Below are positions 18,435 to 24,283 of a DNA stretch of 33,872 nt, one piece after another. Below the pieces are notes generated by a model. It was not told where the DNA came from and ran no database searches. It saw only the letters and a program-made list of their open reading frames with translations. The stretch's first letter is position 1; every line of letters starts with the position of its first letter. Made by a program: the position numbers and the translations under genes. This DNA comes from Candidatus Woesearchaeota archaeon (lineage in GTDB: Archaea; Nanobdellota; Nanobdellia; Woesearchaeales; GCA-2686295), in contig JADHVI010000008.1 in NCBI GenBank assembly GCA_016784125.1, positions 1 to 33,872 on the forward strand, in the 5' to 3' direction.

Positions 18435-20735
18435 ATGAAGGGGTTTGTTGTTTACCCAACTTATAGGGTTACTGATAATAAGGCATATGTTTATTTATTT
18501 GGCAGATTAGAAAATGGTGAATCTTTCTTAACAATAAATTTTTTCAGACCATATCTCTTTATCAAAGAGAAACATTTGAAGAAAGCCTTGAAAATTAATG
18601 TCTTTGAATATGAAAAATGCGATTTAAAAACTTTTGACAGAGATACTGTTGTTAAAGTAATTATGAATGTTCCAAGGGAAATTCCCGAGCTAAGAAAAAA
18701 ACTTGTTGAAGAAAAAATTGACTGCTACGAAGCAGATATTAGGTTTGCGTATAGATACATGATGGATTTGGGTATCAAAGGTTCATTAAATATTGAAGGT
18801 GATTTCAAAAAGGGTGATTTTGTCGATCGAATTTATGAGGACCCCGAATTATCTTCAGCTGATTGGATTCCTAAGCTCAAAATTTTGTCATTTGATATTG
18901 AAACTGATAGGAATGTAAAAAATTTATTCTCAATATCACTACACACGAATAATTTTTCTAAAGCAATGATTATTTCTGATAAAAAATTAAAAAATGCTAT
19001 TAGTGTTTCTGACGAAAAAGAATTATTGGAACTTTTCAAGAAAAAGGTTTTGGAATTAGATCCTGATATAATCACAGGTTGGAATGTTGTTGATTTTGAT
19101 TTATTAAAGTTAGAAGCAAAATTCAGAGAATATAATATTCCCTTTCAACTTGGCAGGATCGATTGGGATTGTAAAATTAGAAAAGAAGAATCTTTCTTCC
19201 GTGATTCTACAGCCAACATACCTGGTAGAGTTGTACTTGATGGAATTCAACTTCTAAAATTATCTTTTGTTAAACTACCTAATTACAAGCTTGATACTGC
19301 AGCTCAAGAACTTCTTGGAGAAAAAAAACTTATTGGCCAAGATAATAAGGGCGAAGAAATTGAAGATGCTTTTAAGAATGATCCTCAAAAACTCGCAGAT
19401 TATAATTTGAAAGATTCTGTGCTAGTCACTAAAATTTTAGAAAAAACCGGCGTTATTGGATTGACAGCTCAACGTTCTTTGTTAACAGGCATCCAACTTG
19501 ACAGAGTTAAAGGCAGTATCGCCTCTTTTGATTCTTTGTATTTAAGAGACTTGAGAAAAAAAGGTTATGTTGCACCATCAGCTCACTTTGGAGAAAGGGA
19601 AGAGAGGATTAAAGGCGGTTTTGTAATGAAATCCAAACCTGGTATTTATGAATATGTCATTGTTTGTGACTTCAAGAGCCTGTATCCAAGCATTATTAGA
19701 ACTTTCAATATTGATCCATTCACATTTGTTCCAGATGGTAAAGGTAAAGATTTGATTAAAGCCCCTAATGGTGCTTGTTTTCGAAAAGAAGAAGGGATTT
19801 TATCGAATATGATTCAAAGGTTATGGGACGCAAGAGATGAAATCAAAAAAAAGAAAGATGCCACAGGTAGTTATGCTATAAAAGTTGTTATGAATTCAAT
19901 GTTTGGTGTGATGGCCAACCCTGTTTTCAGATTCCATAGCATTGACATGGCAAACGCAATTACTTATTTTGGTCAATATTTGATAAAGCTCACAACAAAA
20001 AAAATTGAAGAGAAAGGTTTTGAAGTTATTTACGGAGACACTGATTCTGTCTTTGTTAATTTAAAAGTTGAAAACGAAGAAGATGCAAATAAAGTGGGAA
20101 AAGAGATTGAAAGAGAAATCAACAAATTTTTTACTGCTCACATCACCAAAAAGTATGGTGTTAAAAGTTTCTTAGAATTAGAATTTGAAAAGACTTACAA
20201 GATGTTTCTCATGCCAAAAGCTCGTGGTTCGGAAGTAGGCAGCAAAAAACGATATGCAGGTTTAATTATTAAGGATGGCAAGGAAAAAATGGATTTTGTT
20301 GGGTTGGAGTTTGTCAGACGTGATTGGACAGGACTAGCAAAGAAATTTCAGTTAGAATTGTTGGACAAAATTTTTCACAAACAAGAAATTGCTGAATACG
20401 TCAAAAACTTTGTCAAGGATTTAAAAAAAGGCAAATACGATGATCTGCTTGTATATAGAAAGTCTATTAGGAAAAATTTAGCCGAATATACAAAAACCAC
20501 ACCACCACATGTCAAGGCGGCGAGGATGCTGAAAGAATTGAAGAGTAATGTTATTGAATATGTTATGACAACTAATGGTCCGGAGCCTTTGGAGATTCAG
20601 AAAGATAGATTAGATTATGACCATTACATCGAAAAACAAGTTAAACCTTTAGCTGATTCTGTGCTTGGCTTTTACAACACTAACTTTGATGATATAATCA
20701 ATAATAGTAAACAAAAAACATTGTTTGGATACTAG
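18435..20735 (+). CDS. polB: Family B DNA polymerase (replicative, with 3'-5' exonuclease)
   Basis: A 766 aa archaeal PolB, close to the usual length of about 775. Exonuclease motifs are intact: Exo I 'FDIET' (153-157), Exo II 'ITGWNVVDFD' (213-222) and Exo III 'YNLKDS' (323-328). Polymerase motif A is 'DFKSLYPSII' (412-421), motif B 'KVVMNSMFG' (483-491, Phe where most have Tyr) and motif C 'YGDTDS' (533-538) with both catalytic aspartates. 'KKRYAGL' in the thumb-proximal region is also conserved. It should be an active, proofreading chromosomal polymerase. It neighbours the MCM-like genes, so this is a replication-associated locus. No intein is present. A C-terminal 'TLFGY' may be a PCNA-interaction tail (inference). 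Confidence 0.97.
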   Translation: MKGFVVYPTYRVTDNKAYVYLFGRLENGESFLTINFFRPYLFIKEKHLKKALKINVFEYEKCDLKTFDRDTVVKVIMNVPREIPELRKKLVEEKIDCYEADIRFAYRYMMDLGIKGSLNIEGDFKKGDFVDRIYEDPELSSADWIPKLKILSFDIETDRNVKNLFSISLHTNNFSKAMIISDKKLKNAISVSDEKELLELFKKKVLELDPDIITGWNVVDFDLLKLEAKFREYNIPFQLGRIDWDCKIRKEESFFRDSTANIPGRVVLDGIQLLKLSFVKLPNYKLDTAAQELLGEKKLIGQDNKGEEIEDAFKNDPQKLADYNLKDSVLVTKILEKTGVIGLTAQRSLLTGIQLDRVKGSIASFDSLYLRDLRKKGYVAPSAHFGEREERIKGGFVMKSKPGIYEYVIVCDFKSLYPSIIRTFNIDPFTFVPDGKGKDLIKAPNGACFRKEEGILSNMIQRLWDARDEIKKKKDATGSYAIKVVMNSMFGVMANPVFRFHSIDMANAITYFGQYLIKLTTKKIEEKGFEVIYGDTDSVFVNLKVENEEDANKVGKEIEREINKFFTAHITKKYGVKSFLELEFEKTYKMFLMPKARGSEVGSKKRYAGLIIKDGKEKMDFVGLEFVRRDWTGLAKKFQLELLDKIFHKQEIAEYVKNFVKDLKKGKYDDLLVYRKSIRKNLAEYTKTTPPHVKAARMLKELKSNVIEYVMTTNGPEPLEIQKDRLDYDHYIEKQVKPLADSVLGFYNTNFDDIINNSKQKTLFGY

Positions 20736-20756: not shown

Positions 20757-21029
20757 CTATGATAGTTGTACATAGCCTATGTCAGGCTTAATAAGCATTC
20801 CATCTGATGTCAAAGCATCAAGTGTTGCAAGAACTTCTGATTCGGCCAATCCTTGTGCCGCTCCTTCAAGAATAACTGCTTCAACTTGTATTTTTTTGCC
20901 AGGTCTTGTTGTTAAATCGTTTAATATGTCTAAAATCTTTATTTTATTATCTACTTCGGACTCCTGTCTAATTCTCGAGGCAGTCATCCTTTGTATTTCC
21001 ATCAACTTGTCAAAGTCAAAATCGTCCAT
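20757..21029 (-). CDS. Detached MCM-type C-terminal winged-helix domain protein
   Basis: A 90 aa protein. The first 25 residues ('FDFDKLMEIQRMTASRIR') resemble the DxDxIMTG linker that joins the AAA+ core of archaeal MCM to its C-terminal winged helix. Residues 30-90 fit the winged helix itself: 'KIKILDILNDL', then 'AQGLAESEVLATLDALTSDG', then the wing strand 'IKPDIGYVQL'. It is divergent from the MCM-like ATPase gene, whose product ends exactly where this domain would begin. A TATA-like TTTTTATATAC on the minus strand (about 21075-21085) supports expression. A generic DNA-binding winged helix remains the alternative. Confidence 0.7.
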   Translation of the reverse strand: MDDFDFDKLMEIQRMTASRIRQESEVDNKIKILDILNDLTTRPGKKIQVEAVILEGAAQGLAESEVLATLDALTSDGMLIKPDIGYVQLS

Positions 21030-21136
21030 TTTAGAATATTTCTAACTATTCCCCCATATCAGTATAGGTTTGTGTATATAAAAATGTTTTGGAAAAATGG
21101 AGGAAAAAAGTATATTAATATGAGAATCCCGAAAAC

Positions 21137-21143
21137 TTTATAT
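21137..21143 (+). promoter_or_regulatory. TATA box of the mini-MCM operon
   Basis: TTTATAT is centred about 35 nt before ATG 21175. A GAGG ribosome site at 21167-21170 sits at the right spacing, so the transcript probably has a leader of roughly 9 nt. The opposite-strand TATA for the winged-helix gene is about 55 nt away. Confidence 0.5.
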
Positions 21144-21174
21144 GGTAGTGTAAATTATTAGTTTATGAGGGAAC

Positions 21175-22341
21175 ATGTCATTCGTAAAATTGCTTTTTCC
21201 GCTATCTGGTAAAAAGAAAAAAGAATTAGATAAGCTAAAGCCATACTTGGAAATTAATGATTTCAAGAAAGTAAACAAACTTCTAAAACAAGGAAAAATC
21301 GGGCTAGCAAGTTCATCTTTAAAAGTTTCCAACAAACTCATTCCTGACAAACAGTTTCCAATAATAAATACGGCTATTGAAGATTCTGATATAACAACAC
21401 TTGCCCAAAATTGGAGTGATATAGTTGAACAAAGGGTGCGCGAAGAAAAATATGAAGAATTTTCACTCATAGCCGAACAAAAATTAATGGAATTTATTGC
21501 ACCACACTTAGTTGGATTAGAAGATGTCAAAGAAGCAGCACTCTTATCACTATTCTCACTAGATAAAATTCATGTTTTGCTGCTTGGAGATCCCGGTACA
21601 GGAAAAACAGATATTTTAAGAGCAATTGATGAAGTTGCACCAATTTCATCATTTGGATTAGGATCTGGAACTAGCAGCGCAGGACTCACAGTCACATTTA
21701 AAGGAAATGAACTTATAAAAGGACTCTTACCAATGGCAGATAATGGAATTTGTTGTGTTGATGAGTTAAACCTTATGCGATTAAGAGATCGTGGCTCATT
21801 GCTAAATGCTATGGAAAAAGGTTTTGTCACATATGATAAAGGTAATAAACACATAAAACTTGATGCAAGAATCAGCTTGCTTGCCACTGCAAATCCAAAA
21901 GGAGATAAATTTGTTGGGCGAACTCCTGACACTTGGTTAAAACAAATACCCTTTGATCCAGCCCTACTATCCAGATTTCATTTAGTATTCTTTCTCAGAA
22001 GACCTGGAACTAAGGAATTTATTAATATTGCTAAGAAGATTGTTAGTGAGAGAACAAAAAACTTAGATGTCAATGATGCGTTATTCATAAGGGATTACAT
22101 TGTGTTTTCGCAGATGATTGATGTTGGATTTGATGAAAAACTAAAGAGACAAATAGTGGAATTCGCAACTAAGCTCAAGAAAGATGAAAAAAAATTCTTA
22201 GTTGAAGTCAGTCCAAGATTAGTTCTTGGAATTATGAGACTTGCAAAAGCTTCTGCCAGAATGGAATTAAGAAGGATTGTGGAGCAAAAAGATCTTAAGA
22301 AAGTATTCACACTTTATGAAAAAAGCTTATACATAAAATGA
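21175..22341 (+). CDS. Mini-MCM: MCM-family AAA+ ATPase core without N-terminal OB/zinc domain
   Basis: A 388 aa AAA+ protein of the MCM clade. Walker A is 'GDPGTGKT' (138-145), 'SSAGLTVTF' (167-175) matches the MCM helix-2 insert, Walker B is 'GICCVDEL' (191-198) and sensor 1 is 'LLATANP' (235-241). The arginine finger is 'LLSRFHLVF' (264-272) and sensor 2 'SPRLVLGIMRLAKASARM' (346-363). The first 110 residues are helical and contain no cysteine, so the usual N-terminal OB fold and zinc site are missing. The C-terminal winged helix is also absent. Canonical archaeal MCM is about 650-700 aa. It could be a helicase relying on partners, or an accessory ATPase if a canonical MCM exists elsewhere. 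It overlaps the next gene by 4 nt. Confidence 0.85.
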   Translation: MSFVKLLFPLSGKKKKELDKLKPYLEINDFKKVNKLLKQGKIGLASSSLKVSNKLIPDKQFPIINTAIEDSDITTLAQNWSDIVEQRVREEKYEEFSLIAEQKLMEFIAPHLVGLEDVKEAALLSLFSLDKIHVLLLGDPGTGKTDILRAIDEVAPISSFGLGSGTSSAGLTVTFKGNELIKGLLPMADNGICCVDELNLMRLRDRGSLLNAMEKGFVTYDKGNKHIKLDARISLLATANPKGDKFVGRTPDTWLKQIPFDPALLSRFHLVFFLRRPGTKEFINIAKKIVSERTKNLDVNDALFIRDYIVFSQMIDVGFDEKLKRQIVEFATKLKKDEKKFLVEVSPRLVLGIMRLAKASARMELRRIVEQKDLKKVFTLYEKSLYIK

Positions 22342-22892
22342 ATAATCTGAAAAAATTCGGAGTTATAATTAGTATAACCATATTATTTGCAATATTTATA
22401 TTTAGCTTAATAACTGCTGTTCAAGAAAGACCTGATTATGATGATTTTTGTAACACTCTATCCATGCCTGTCAAAGTTCAAGTTGAAAATCTTAATTGCC
22501 CAGAAGCTGATTTTTCTGAATTAAACGCAGAATCCTGTCAATCAGAACGTGGAGATTATCTTCCTAAGTATGAAAATGGTTGTATAACAAATTATGAATG
22601 TGAAACTTGTTCTAGAGATTATGACCTTGCTCAAAAAAATCATAACTTTTTAATTTTCATAATTTCAACTATTTTGGGACTAATAGTTGTTTTACTAAGC
22701 ATATATCTTCCTCATAAAAAAGATTCTTTAAAAGAATGGGTTTTAATAGGCTTATTGCTTGGAGGACTAATAGCAATATTTGTTGGTACAGGACAGTATT
22801 TCAGCGACATTCATAGAATTCTCCGGCCAATAGTAATTTTACTAGAAATAGTCTTAATTATTTTTGTTGCCTATAAAAAAATGAAAAAATGA
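22338..22892 (+). CDS. Membrane protein with six-cysteine external loop
   Basis: Unrecognised protein of 184 aa. One N-terminal membrane segment (about 8-27) is followed by a loop (28-100) with six cysteines (38, 54, 67, 82, 88, 91), then three further membrane segments (about 104-124, 134-152, 162-178). Even cysteine number in a likely external loop suggests disulfides. It overlaps both the mini-MCM (4 nt) and cutA (4 nt), so all three are translated from one message. I see no domain that assigns function. The operon pairing with a replication-type ATPase is odd and may reflect only gene compaction. Confidence 0.75.
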   Translation: MNNLKKFGVIISITILFAIFIFSLITAVQERPDYDDFCNTLSMPVKVQVENLNCPEADFSELNAESCQSERGDYLPKYENGCITNYECETCSRDYDLAQKNHNFLIFIISTILGLIVVLLSIYLPHKKDSLKEWVLIGLLLGGLIAIFVGTGQYFSDIHRILRPIVILLEIVLIIFVAYKKMKK

Positions 22893-23191
22893 TTATTTAT
22901 TACACTACTTGCAAAAATAAAATCGAAGCAAAGAAAATCGCCAAAGCATTGCTAAAAGATAAGCTCATTGCATGTGCAAATATTTTTGAAGTTAATTCTT
23001 TGTATGAGTGGGATGGTAAGATGCAAGATCATAATGAGGCCATTCTTTGGGTAAAAACAATTGATAGGAGAACAGAGGAAGTAAAAGATGCAATTAGAAA
23101 GCTTCACTCATACGACATTCCTGCAATTGTTGAGATTAAAACCAGAGTTAATGCAGAGTATCTTGCGTGGGTTGAATCTCAGATAAAGTGA
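22889..23191 (+). CDS. cutA: CutA1 divalent-cation tolerance protein
   Basis: A 100 aa trimeric PII-like protein. The family signature runs 'LIACANIFEVNSLYEWDGK', then 'EAILWVKT', and the closing 'YDIPAIVEIKTRVNAEYLAWV'. CutA1 is widely conserved and was linked to copper tolerance in bacteria; its molecular role is unresolved. It overlaps the membrane-protein gene by 4 nt. Length and motifs are complete. Confidence 0.95.
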   Translation: MIIYYTTCKNKIEAKKIAKALLKDKLIACANIFEVNSLYEWDGKMQDHNEAILWVKTIDRRTEEVKDAIRKLHSYDIPAIVEIKTRVNAEYLAWVESQIK

Positions 23192-23200
23192 CCATAAAAC

Positions 23201-23210
23201 ATTTAAATAT
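23201..23210 (+). promoter_or_regulatory. TATA box of the mscS gene
   Basis: ATTTAAATAT is centred about 25 nt before ATG 23231, directly after the cutA stop. The gene is therefore a separate leaderless unit. Confidence 0.6.
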
Positions 23211-23230
23211 ATCAGAACGAATAGATTATT

Positions 23231-24283
23231 ATGATCGCGTTTTTAGAACACACTTATTTTGGTAATACACTAATTAGGTATTTAGTTTTCATAATAATAA
23301 TAATTATAGCTGCAGTTGTAGGAAAAATTGTTTTTTATATTAGCAGAAATGTCTTACAGAAGAAAGCAGCTAGGACAAAGAATAGAATTGATGATTTGTT
23401 GGTTCAAACCTTAGAGAAACCTCTTGTTTTCTTAATATTCATTATCGGTTTAAGCATTGCTCTGAAAACACTAACATTTTCATCCAGTGCAGACACTTTT
23501 TTCGGAAATGTTGTTGAAATAATATTAACCATAGATATTTTCTGGTTTGTGATTGTATTTATAGACGCCTTGATTGTGAATTACGTAGCTCCTTTAACTG
23601 CTAAGACAAAATCAGATTTAGATGACGTACTTTTACCGGTTGTCAGAAAGATCGTTAAAGTAACCATAACATGCTTGGCCATAATAATAATCTTTGACAA
23701 CTTCGGTTACGATGTAACTTCACTTATTGCAGGTCTTGGTATTGGCGGATTGGCGTTTGCTCTTGCAGCCAAAGATATGTTAGCAAATTTGTTTGGTGGC
23801 GTTACAATAATGACCGATAAACCGTTCAAACTTGGTGACAGGATCAAAATCGAAAGTTATGATGGCATAGTTGAAGATATTGGATTGAGAAGCACCAGAT
23901 TAAAAACTTTAGATGGTTTTCAATTGGTTGTACCAAACGCAACAATTGCTAATTCCATCTTAGAAAATGTTACTAAAGAAAAGAGTCGAAAAGTAAAAAT
24001 GAATATTGGCGTTGAGTACTCTACTTCCATGCAGAAAATGAAAGAAGCAAAAAAAATAATTGAAGAAATTGTAATTAAGAATGAAGACACTGATGACAAA
24101 TCAATTGTTAGCTTCAATATGTTTGGCGAAAGTGCATTAAATTTTCTTATTATTTACTGGATAAAGAATCTGGATAACATATTAAATGCACAACACAATA
24201 TTAATATGGAAATTAAAAGAAGATTTGAAAAAGCCAAGATAAATATTGCCTTTCCTTCAACAACTGTTTATCTAAAAAAATAA
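23231..24283 (+). CDS. mscS: Small-conductance mechanosensitive channel (MscS family)
   Basis: A 350 aa membrane channel that releases solutes on hypo-osmotic shock. Hydrophobic segments lie at about 12-35, 65-85, 95-120 and 140-160. The pore helix and following stretch read 'GLGIGGLAFALAAKDML' and 'FGGVTIMTDKPFKLGDRI', the family hallmark. The beta domain and C-terminal alpha/beta vestibule domain follow. There are more transmembrane segments than minimal E. coli MscS, as is common in archaea. Confidence 0.95.
   Translation: MIAFLEHTYFGNTLIRYLVFIIIIIIAAVVGKIVFYISRNVLQKKAARTKNRIDDLLVQTLEKPLVFLIFIIGLSIALKTLTFSSSADTFFGNVVEIILTIDIFWFVIVFIDALIVNYVAPLTAKTKSDLDDVLLPVVRKIVKVTITCLAIIIIFDNFGYDVTSLIAGLGIGGLAFALAAKDMLANLFGGVTIMTDKPFKLGDRIKIESYDGIVEDIGLRSTRLKTLDGFQLVVPNATIANSILENVTKEKSRKVKMNIGVEYSTSMQKMKEAKKIIEEIVIKNEDTDDKSIVSFNMFGESALNFLIIYWIKNLDNILNAQHNINMEIKRRFEKAKINIAFPSTTVYLKK

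Follow-up and report, generated by a model that had tools for sequence, protein, structure and literature searches.

A core-only MCM paralog and a free-standing MCM-type winged-helix protein encoded beside PolB in Woesearchaeales

Described MCM systems and the locus

Archaea and eukaryotes use MCM as their replicative helicase, and loading and guiding DNA is believed to require its OB collar. The extra MCMs of Thermococcus kodakarensis and the Methanococcales and the eukaryotic MCM8/9 keep the OB-fold N-terminal half. Extra MCMs occur in other archaea (PMC3307487, PMC3984812), and the literature searched, with incomplete coverage, describes no extra archaeal MCM that lacks the OB half. The MCM winged helix (MCM-WH) reportedly binds Orc1 and controls the ATPase and helicase activities of MCM, in work cited in PMC11686378. 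The winged helix of Rpa2 (Rpa2-WH), a part of RPA, is a replisome protein–protein adaptor that binds primase and PolD and shows no substantial binding to PolB (PMC11686378).

The window, a 33,872-nucleotide stretch of Candidatus Woesearchaeota DNA (contig JADHVI010000008.1), comes from a 0.95 Mb archaeal genome that is 84% complete. It encodes a 388-residue MCM-class ATPase (mini-MCM) and a 90-residue winged-helix protein as a divergently transcribed, head-to-head pair with an intergenic gap of 145 bp (Table 1). Compared to the archaeal replicative MCM (NF040949; PF00493 and PF17855), the mini-MCM shares the AAA+ core and lid, the catalytic and trans-acting residues, and the PS1-hairpin lysine. 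It differs in carrying an unrelated ~100-residue domain rather than the A/OB/zinc collar, in having no winged helix and a shorter helix-2-insert loop, and in coexisting with a full-length MCM. The extra MCMs and MCM8/9 are likewise second MCMs, presumably dispensable or specialized, but the mini-MCM retains only the core and has diverged much further. The 90-residue protein has a sequence profile and fold in common with the MCM winged-helix domains 2m45 and 2ma3, but it is free-standing, has a predicted long helix, and is encoded beside PolB instead of being attached to MCM. Its closest fold is the Pyrococcus Rpa2 winged helix (9f26, 9f2a; TM 0.66/0.74, rmsd 1.7), with which it has no detectable sequence match.

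Table 1. Features of the mini-MCM locus in window coordinates.
Feature	Coordinates	Strand or direction	Description
PolB gene	18435..20735	+	DNA polymerase of family B; lies tail to tail (convergent) with the winged-helix gene here and in 11 other families
Stand-alone MCM-type winged-helix gene	20757..21029	-	90 aa; predicted long N-terminal helix, then winged helix
Divergent intergenic region	21030..21174		Archaeal-type promoter elements, conserved across the window's family; promoter assignment by inspection
TATATAAAAA element	~21075-21084	Oriented toward the winged-helix gene; - strand reading TTTTTATATA	Promoter element by inspection
CGAAAACTTTATATG element	~21130-21144	Facing the mini-MCM gene	Promoter element by inspection
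Mini-MCM gene	21175..22341	+	388 aa; AAA+ ATPase of the MCM class, its N-terminal domain specific to the family
Membrane protein gene	22338..22892	+	184 aa; start overlaps the mini-MCM stop

Both open reading frames lie where the initial annotation had placed them, on the same strands and with the same lengths. They are conserved protein-coding genes, with identities of 62–78% (mini-MCM) and 59–79% (winged helix) across all eight genomes of the window's family (f1). The named relatives at 62–78% identity are Woesearchaeota/Nanoarchaeota metagenome bins. No dedicated family for either protein was found in Pfam, NCBIfam, or PHROGs, and no description of either was found in the literature searched, the coverage of which was incomplete. 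The genes had also been described as adjacent to polB, and the ends of the PolB and winged-helix genes are indeed ~21 bp apart. Both candidate promoters in the gap, recognized by inspection, are TATA-like and conserved in the window's family. The overlap of the 184-residue membrane protein gene with the mini-MCM stop makes cotranscription probable in this family; this adjacency is not kept in other families. Downstream of the mini-MCM (22338-24283), the membrane protein and CutA genes follow with overlapping start and stop codons, and an MscS channel gene comes next. The four genes are probably one transcript in the window's family, and their order is not kept outside it.

The mini-MCM and the full-length MCM

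The mini-MCM matches the Pfam MCM family (PF00493) with an E-value of 3.7e-40 and 137.8 bits against a cut-off of 23.3, and MCM_lid (PF17855) with an E-value of 2.9e-10 and 40.9 bits against a cut-off of 27.4. Mg_chelatase (31.2 bits), AAA_5, and other families score far lower than MCM. The best 60 PDB matches are all MCM. An AlphaFold model derived from 29 sequences has a pLDDT of 91.8, and only MCM-containing chains are among the 50 Foldseek matches listed for it. A MoxR/Mg-chelatase identity was ruled out by the Pfam scores and the tree described below, and together with the Foldseek result these sustain the original assignment to the MCM class. The score against the archaeal MCM model NF040949 is 159.8 bits, which is below the curated full-model score of 940 bits.

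The chain consists of an N-terminal domain (residues ~1–100), the AAA+ core (~101–291), and the lid (~304–385). The MCM-specific motifs read from the sequence by the initial annotation are all present (Walker A GDPGTGKT, the SSAGLT region, GICCVDEL, LLSRF, and SPR), and the first cysteine is residue 193. The protein had been thought to end at the sensor-2 helix; instead, positions 2–87 of the 87 in PF17855 align to residues 304–385, giving a complete lid. The chain ends with this lid, and a C-terminal winged helix is absent from it. In 29 homologs with 41–78% identity, Walker A residues Gly143 and Lys144, Asp196 and Glu197, sensor-1 Asn240, the arginine finger Arg267, sensor-2 Arg348, and the PS1-hairpin Lys222 are invariant. 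The catalytic residues are also intact in a pairwise alignment with the organism's own MCM. As the residues that bind ATP, hydrolyze it, or act across subunits do not vary, the mini-MCM very probably forms rings and is active as an ATPase.

No Pfam domain matches the mini-MCM before residue 102, so an A/OB/zinc domain was not detected, and MCM_OB was found only in the other MCM of the genome. The modeled N-terminal domain consists of helices at residues 3–7, 12–20, and 27–38, a hairpin (42–48/60–66), and a helix at 71–97. Residues 1–100 are unrelated to the MCM N-terminus of the organism group by hhalign (probability 0.2%), and nothing was found in comparisons with the MCM C-terminus and the 90-residue protein. 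There is no Pfam match to this domain and no convincing match among PDB chains. The lack of a detectable relative shows that the N-terminal half was replaced and not just cut off. The absence of the OB/zinc region claimed earlier thus holds, but the region was not simply discarded; an unrelated domain stands in its place.

A search of the same genome for a full MCM, proposed as a check in the initial annotation, located a complete 674-residue MCM on another contig (G000:C26). It carries MCM_OB, the AAA+ domain, and its own C-terminal winged helix, and the mini-MCM core is ~34% identical to it. Among 99 related genomes at the order level, 34 encode the mini-MCM, and most of these also yielded a full-length MCM. 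Very diverged mini-MCM candidates occur in three more genomes (G024, G050, G055). In a few mini-MCM genomes, such as G009 and G058, the full-length MCM was seen only in pieces (split matches in long frames) or not listed; missing data or inteins are possible explanations. Five genomes (G027, G058, G063, G067, G091) have full MCM frames of ~890–1100 residues in which the AAA+ match is in separated pieces, the pattern that an intein within the ATPase domain of MCM would produce.

Phylogenetic analysis placed 22 full-length MCMs in one clade (support 100/100) apart from every mini-MCM, with MoxR far off. After the longest branches were removed, the mini-MCMs fell on one side with a support of only 41. 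By these sequence comparisons, the mini-MCM is a deep, separately conserved paralog of archaeal MCM. In a phylum-wide sample, 42 of the 43 carriers belong to the same order as the window genome or are closer to it, and a wider search, which found the mini-MCM mainly in this order, also gave a few in other parts of the class. The mini-MCM also appears in records labeled Methanosarcinales, Euryarchaeota, Nanohalarchaeota, and Aenigmatarchaeota, which are likely mislabeled or mixed bins.

The winged-helix protein and its genomic neighborhoods

The 90-residue protein aligns to positions 613–680 of the 682 in NF040949 (E-value 3.8e-4), and 20 of 23 members of its family match this model. Its alignment to the C-terminus of the organism's MCM scores 73, compared to 29.8 ± 5.5 for shuffled sequences. 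A PDB search using the 23-member profile returned the MCM winged helix 2m45 first (E-value 7e-6), with 2ma3 at 0.01; a profile was needed, as the single-sequence search gave only a chance P-type ATPase match. The hhalign comparison of the profile to 22 MCM C-termini gave a probability of 97.9% and an E-value of 3.7e-13. The model match, the shuffle score, and the profile results make the homology to the MCM C-terminal winged helix solid, as the initial annotation had suspected. The structural model (pLDDT 87.7) has a 37-residue helix (residues 3–39) followed by the winged helix, and nothing in the matched part of MCM corresponds to this predicted helix. The closest fold found by Foldseek is the Pyrococcus Rpa2 winged helix bound to primase or PolD; MCM 2ma3 ranks lower in the list, which also includes MarR-type matches.

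The head-to-head pair is kept in all eight genomes of the window's family, including genus g2, where PolB is ~2.4 kb away, and was never seen in any other family; the conserved adjacency sought earlier therefore exists only within this family. The winged-helix gene is convergent with PolB in 11 other families, at spacings from overlapping to ~5 kb (G066, G074, G075, G043, G027, G064, G060, G093, G034, G079, and G042). In the last of these (G042:C21:317-590), the gene is apparently frameshifted, and its two halves match the profile in separate frames. Three of the PolB-linked cases (G027, G064, G060) have no mini-MCM. The order contains two very different family B polymerases, with ~42–78% and ~30% identity to the window's PolB, and nearly all stand-alone winged helices accompany the ~42–78% type.

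The usual mini-MCM site in other families adjoins a divergent ~185-residue gene with a PIN-like gene behind it, lies upstream of oapABC, which encodes an Era-like GTPase plus OapB and OapC, or does both. The conserved divergent block has the PIN-like (~233 aa) and ~185-residue genes on one side and oapA/oapB/oapC (arvABC) on the other, and in some genomes the mini-MCM or other genes are inserted in its gap. Neither the 185-residue nor the PIN-like protein has a convincing match in Pfam. The block occurs without the mini-MCM in G041 and G056. In G044 and G089, the 185-aa/oapA gap is filled by a 371-residue gene (L234:833-1948) and a 678-residue HerA/VirB4-like ATPase gene (L235:1123-3159). OapA is ArvA, a vesicle GTPase (PMC10927574). 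This identity, and the existence of the block without the mini-MCM, mean that the neighborhood gives no replication evidence, and an 'origin-associated' role was dropped. HerA/Mre11-like genes further from the mini-MCM in some loci were too sparse to use.

The 185-residue gene is not detectable in the window's family. G072 looks intermediate: its 185-residue gene is followed by the mini-MCM and then GAPDH-PGK, which also lies downstream of the mini-MCM in the window. A simple reading is that a rearrangement placed PolB and the winged helix where the 185-residue gene had been.

Across the 99 genomes, 19 have both the mini-MCM and the winged helix, 15 only the mini-MCM, 5 only the winged helix, and 60 neither. 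The two genes co-occur more than expected (p = 1.8e-4, one genome per family; p = 0.018 among genomes with the window's PolB type only), and genomes with the winged helix tend to lack the 185-residue gene and vice versa (family-level p = 3.7e-4). The window's PolB type is present in 23 of 24 winged-helix carriers (family-level p = 1.8e-6), a stronger association than that with the mini-MCM; all these tests collapse families only, and deeper shared ancestry remains in the p values. Several genomes that carry one gene without the other are nearly complete. The proposal that a single MCM was broken into pieces does not survive these data: a full MCM is present, the mini-MCM is an old paralog, and each gene occurs without the other. 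An ATPase/DNA-adaptor pair, also proposed initially, is possible only within the window's family.

Functional interpretation

With moderate confidence, we favor a model in which the mini-MCM is an accessory ring ATPase beside the replicative MCM and the 90-residue protein, an MCM-type winged helix from a separate gene linked to PolB, is an adaptor or trans-regulator, the two genes having been joined by rearrangement. The full-length MCM would load and unwind as usual. The mini-MCM would retain the motor alone, consisting of AAA+ core and lid, and carry its own N-terminal domain in place of the OB/zinc collar. Most likely, it would assemble through its conserved trans residues into a homohexameric, ATP-driven ring that would translocate on or remodel DNA as an accessory to the intact replicative MCM, and the N-terminal domain would set the target. 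The 90-residue protein probably works as a small adaptor in the replisome or as a trans-regulator, with PolB, Orc1/Cdc6, or the full-length MCM as its target. This role is proposed because, according to PMC11686378, MCM-WH is reported to bind Orc1 and control MCM activity, and Rpa2-WH to bind polymerases. In the window's family, the rearrangement would have created the divergent pair, each gene with its own promoter. Against the accessory DNA ring, a helicase that lacks the OB/zinc collar might be wholly unable to process DNA, and the mini-MCM could instead be a regulator or a non-DNA remodeler. Against the PolB-adaptor role, a tail-to-tail neighborhood is weaker than an operon, and Rpa2-WH, the closest fold, did not bind PolB substantially (PMC11686378). 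Against separate genes, the co-occurrence and the pairing in eight of eight family genomes would fit a functional pair.

That functional pair would be a two-part MCM in which the winged helix supplies the C-terminal regulatory domain to the mini-MCM in trans, possibly coupled to PolB. We consider it unlikely. The invariable pairing within the family, even in g2 where PolB is distant, the shared conserved promoter region, the positive co-occurrence, and the profile-level homology to the MCM winged helix all speak for it. However, the winged helix is absent from 15 of 34 mini-MCM genomes and the mini-MCM from 5 of 24 winged-helix genomes, no other family has the adjacency, the association with PolB is the stronger one, and the predicted 37-residue helix has no equivalent in the matched MCM part. 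An extended form of this idea is rather doubtful: the core-only ring and the free-standing winged helix would be a two-protein helicase module coupled to a family B polymerase in a second, repair- or restart-type replisome. If it were true, reduced archaea would have a second replisome beside the normal one.

It is improbable that the 90-residue protein locally regulates transcription of its own gene and of the divergent mini-MCM gene. The regulator–target layout, the conserved intergenic region, the winged-helix fold, and the MarR-type Foldseek matches are consistent with this idea, but the sequence relatives of the protein are MCM C-termini and not transcription factors, other families have the gene by PolB without an adjoining mini-MCM, and TATA/BRE-like elements account for the conserved intergenic blocks.

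The idea that the mini-MCM, like the multiple MCMs of the Methanococcales, is selfish or belongs to a mobile element is disfavored and very improbable. Links to mobile elements are common among extra archaeal MCMs (PMC3307487, PMC3984812), the mini-MCM occurs patchily, and the 185-aa/oapA gap is a site of insertion, with other genes in it in G044 and G089. Nevertheless, no mini-MCM relative was found in 2.9 million viral contigs, the plasmid matches seen are annotated ordinary MCMs with ~31% identity, and the mini-MCM has chromosomal housekeeping neighbors, strictly kept catalytic residues, and its own lineage. The initial suggestion that the pieces make up the main replicative helicase of a reduced lineage, with which the reduced 0.95 Mb genome is consistent, is refuted by the complete MCM with OB, AAA+, and winged-helix domains at G000:C26.

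A conserved, catalytically intact MCM family without the OB collar is a natural test of the motor alone. The PolB-tied, free-standing MCM-type winged helix suggests that, in DPANN archaea, modules that regulate helicases and modules linked to polymerases can be interchanged.
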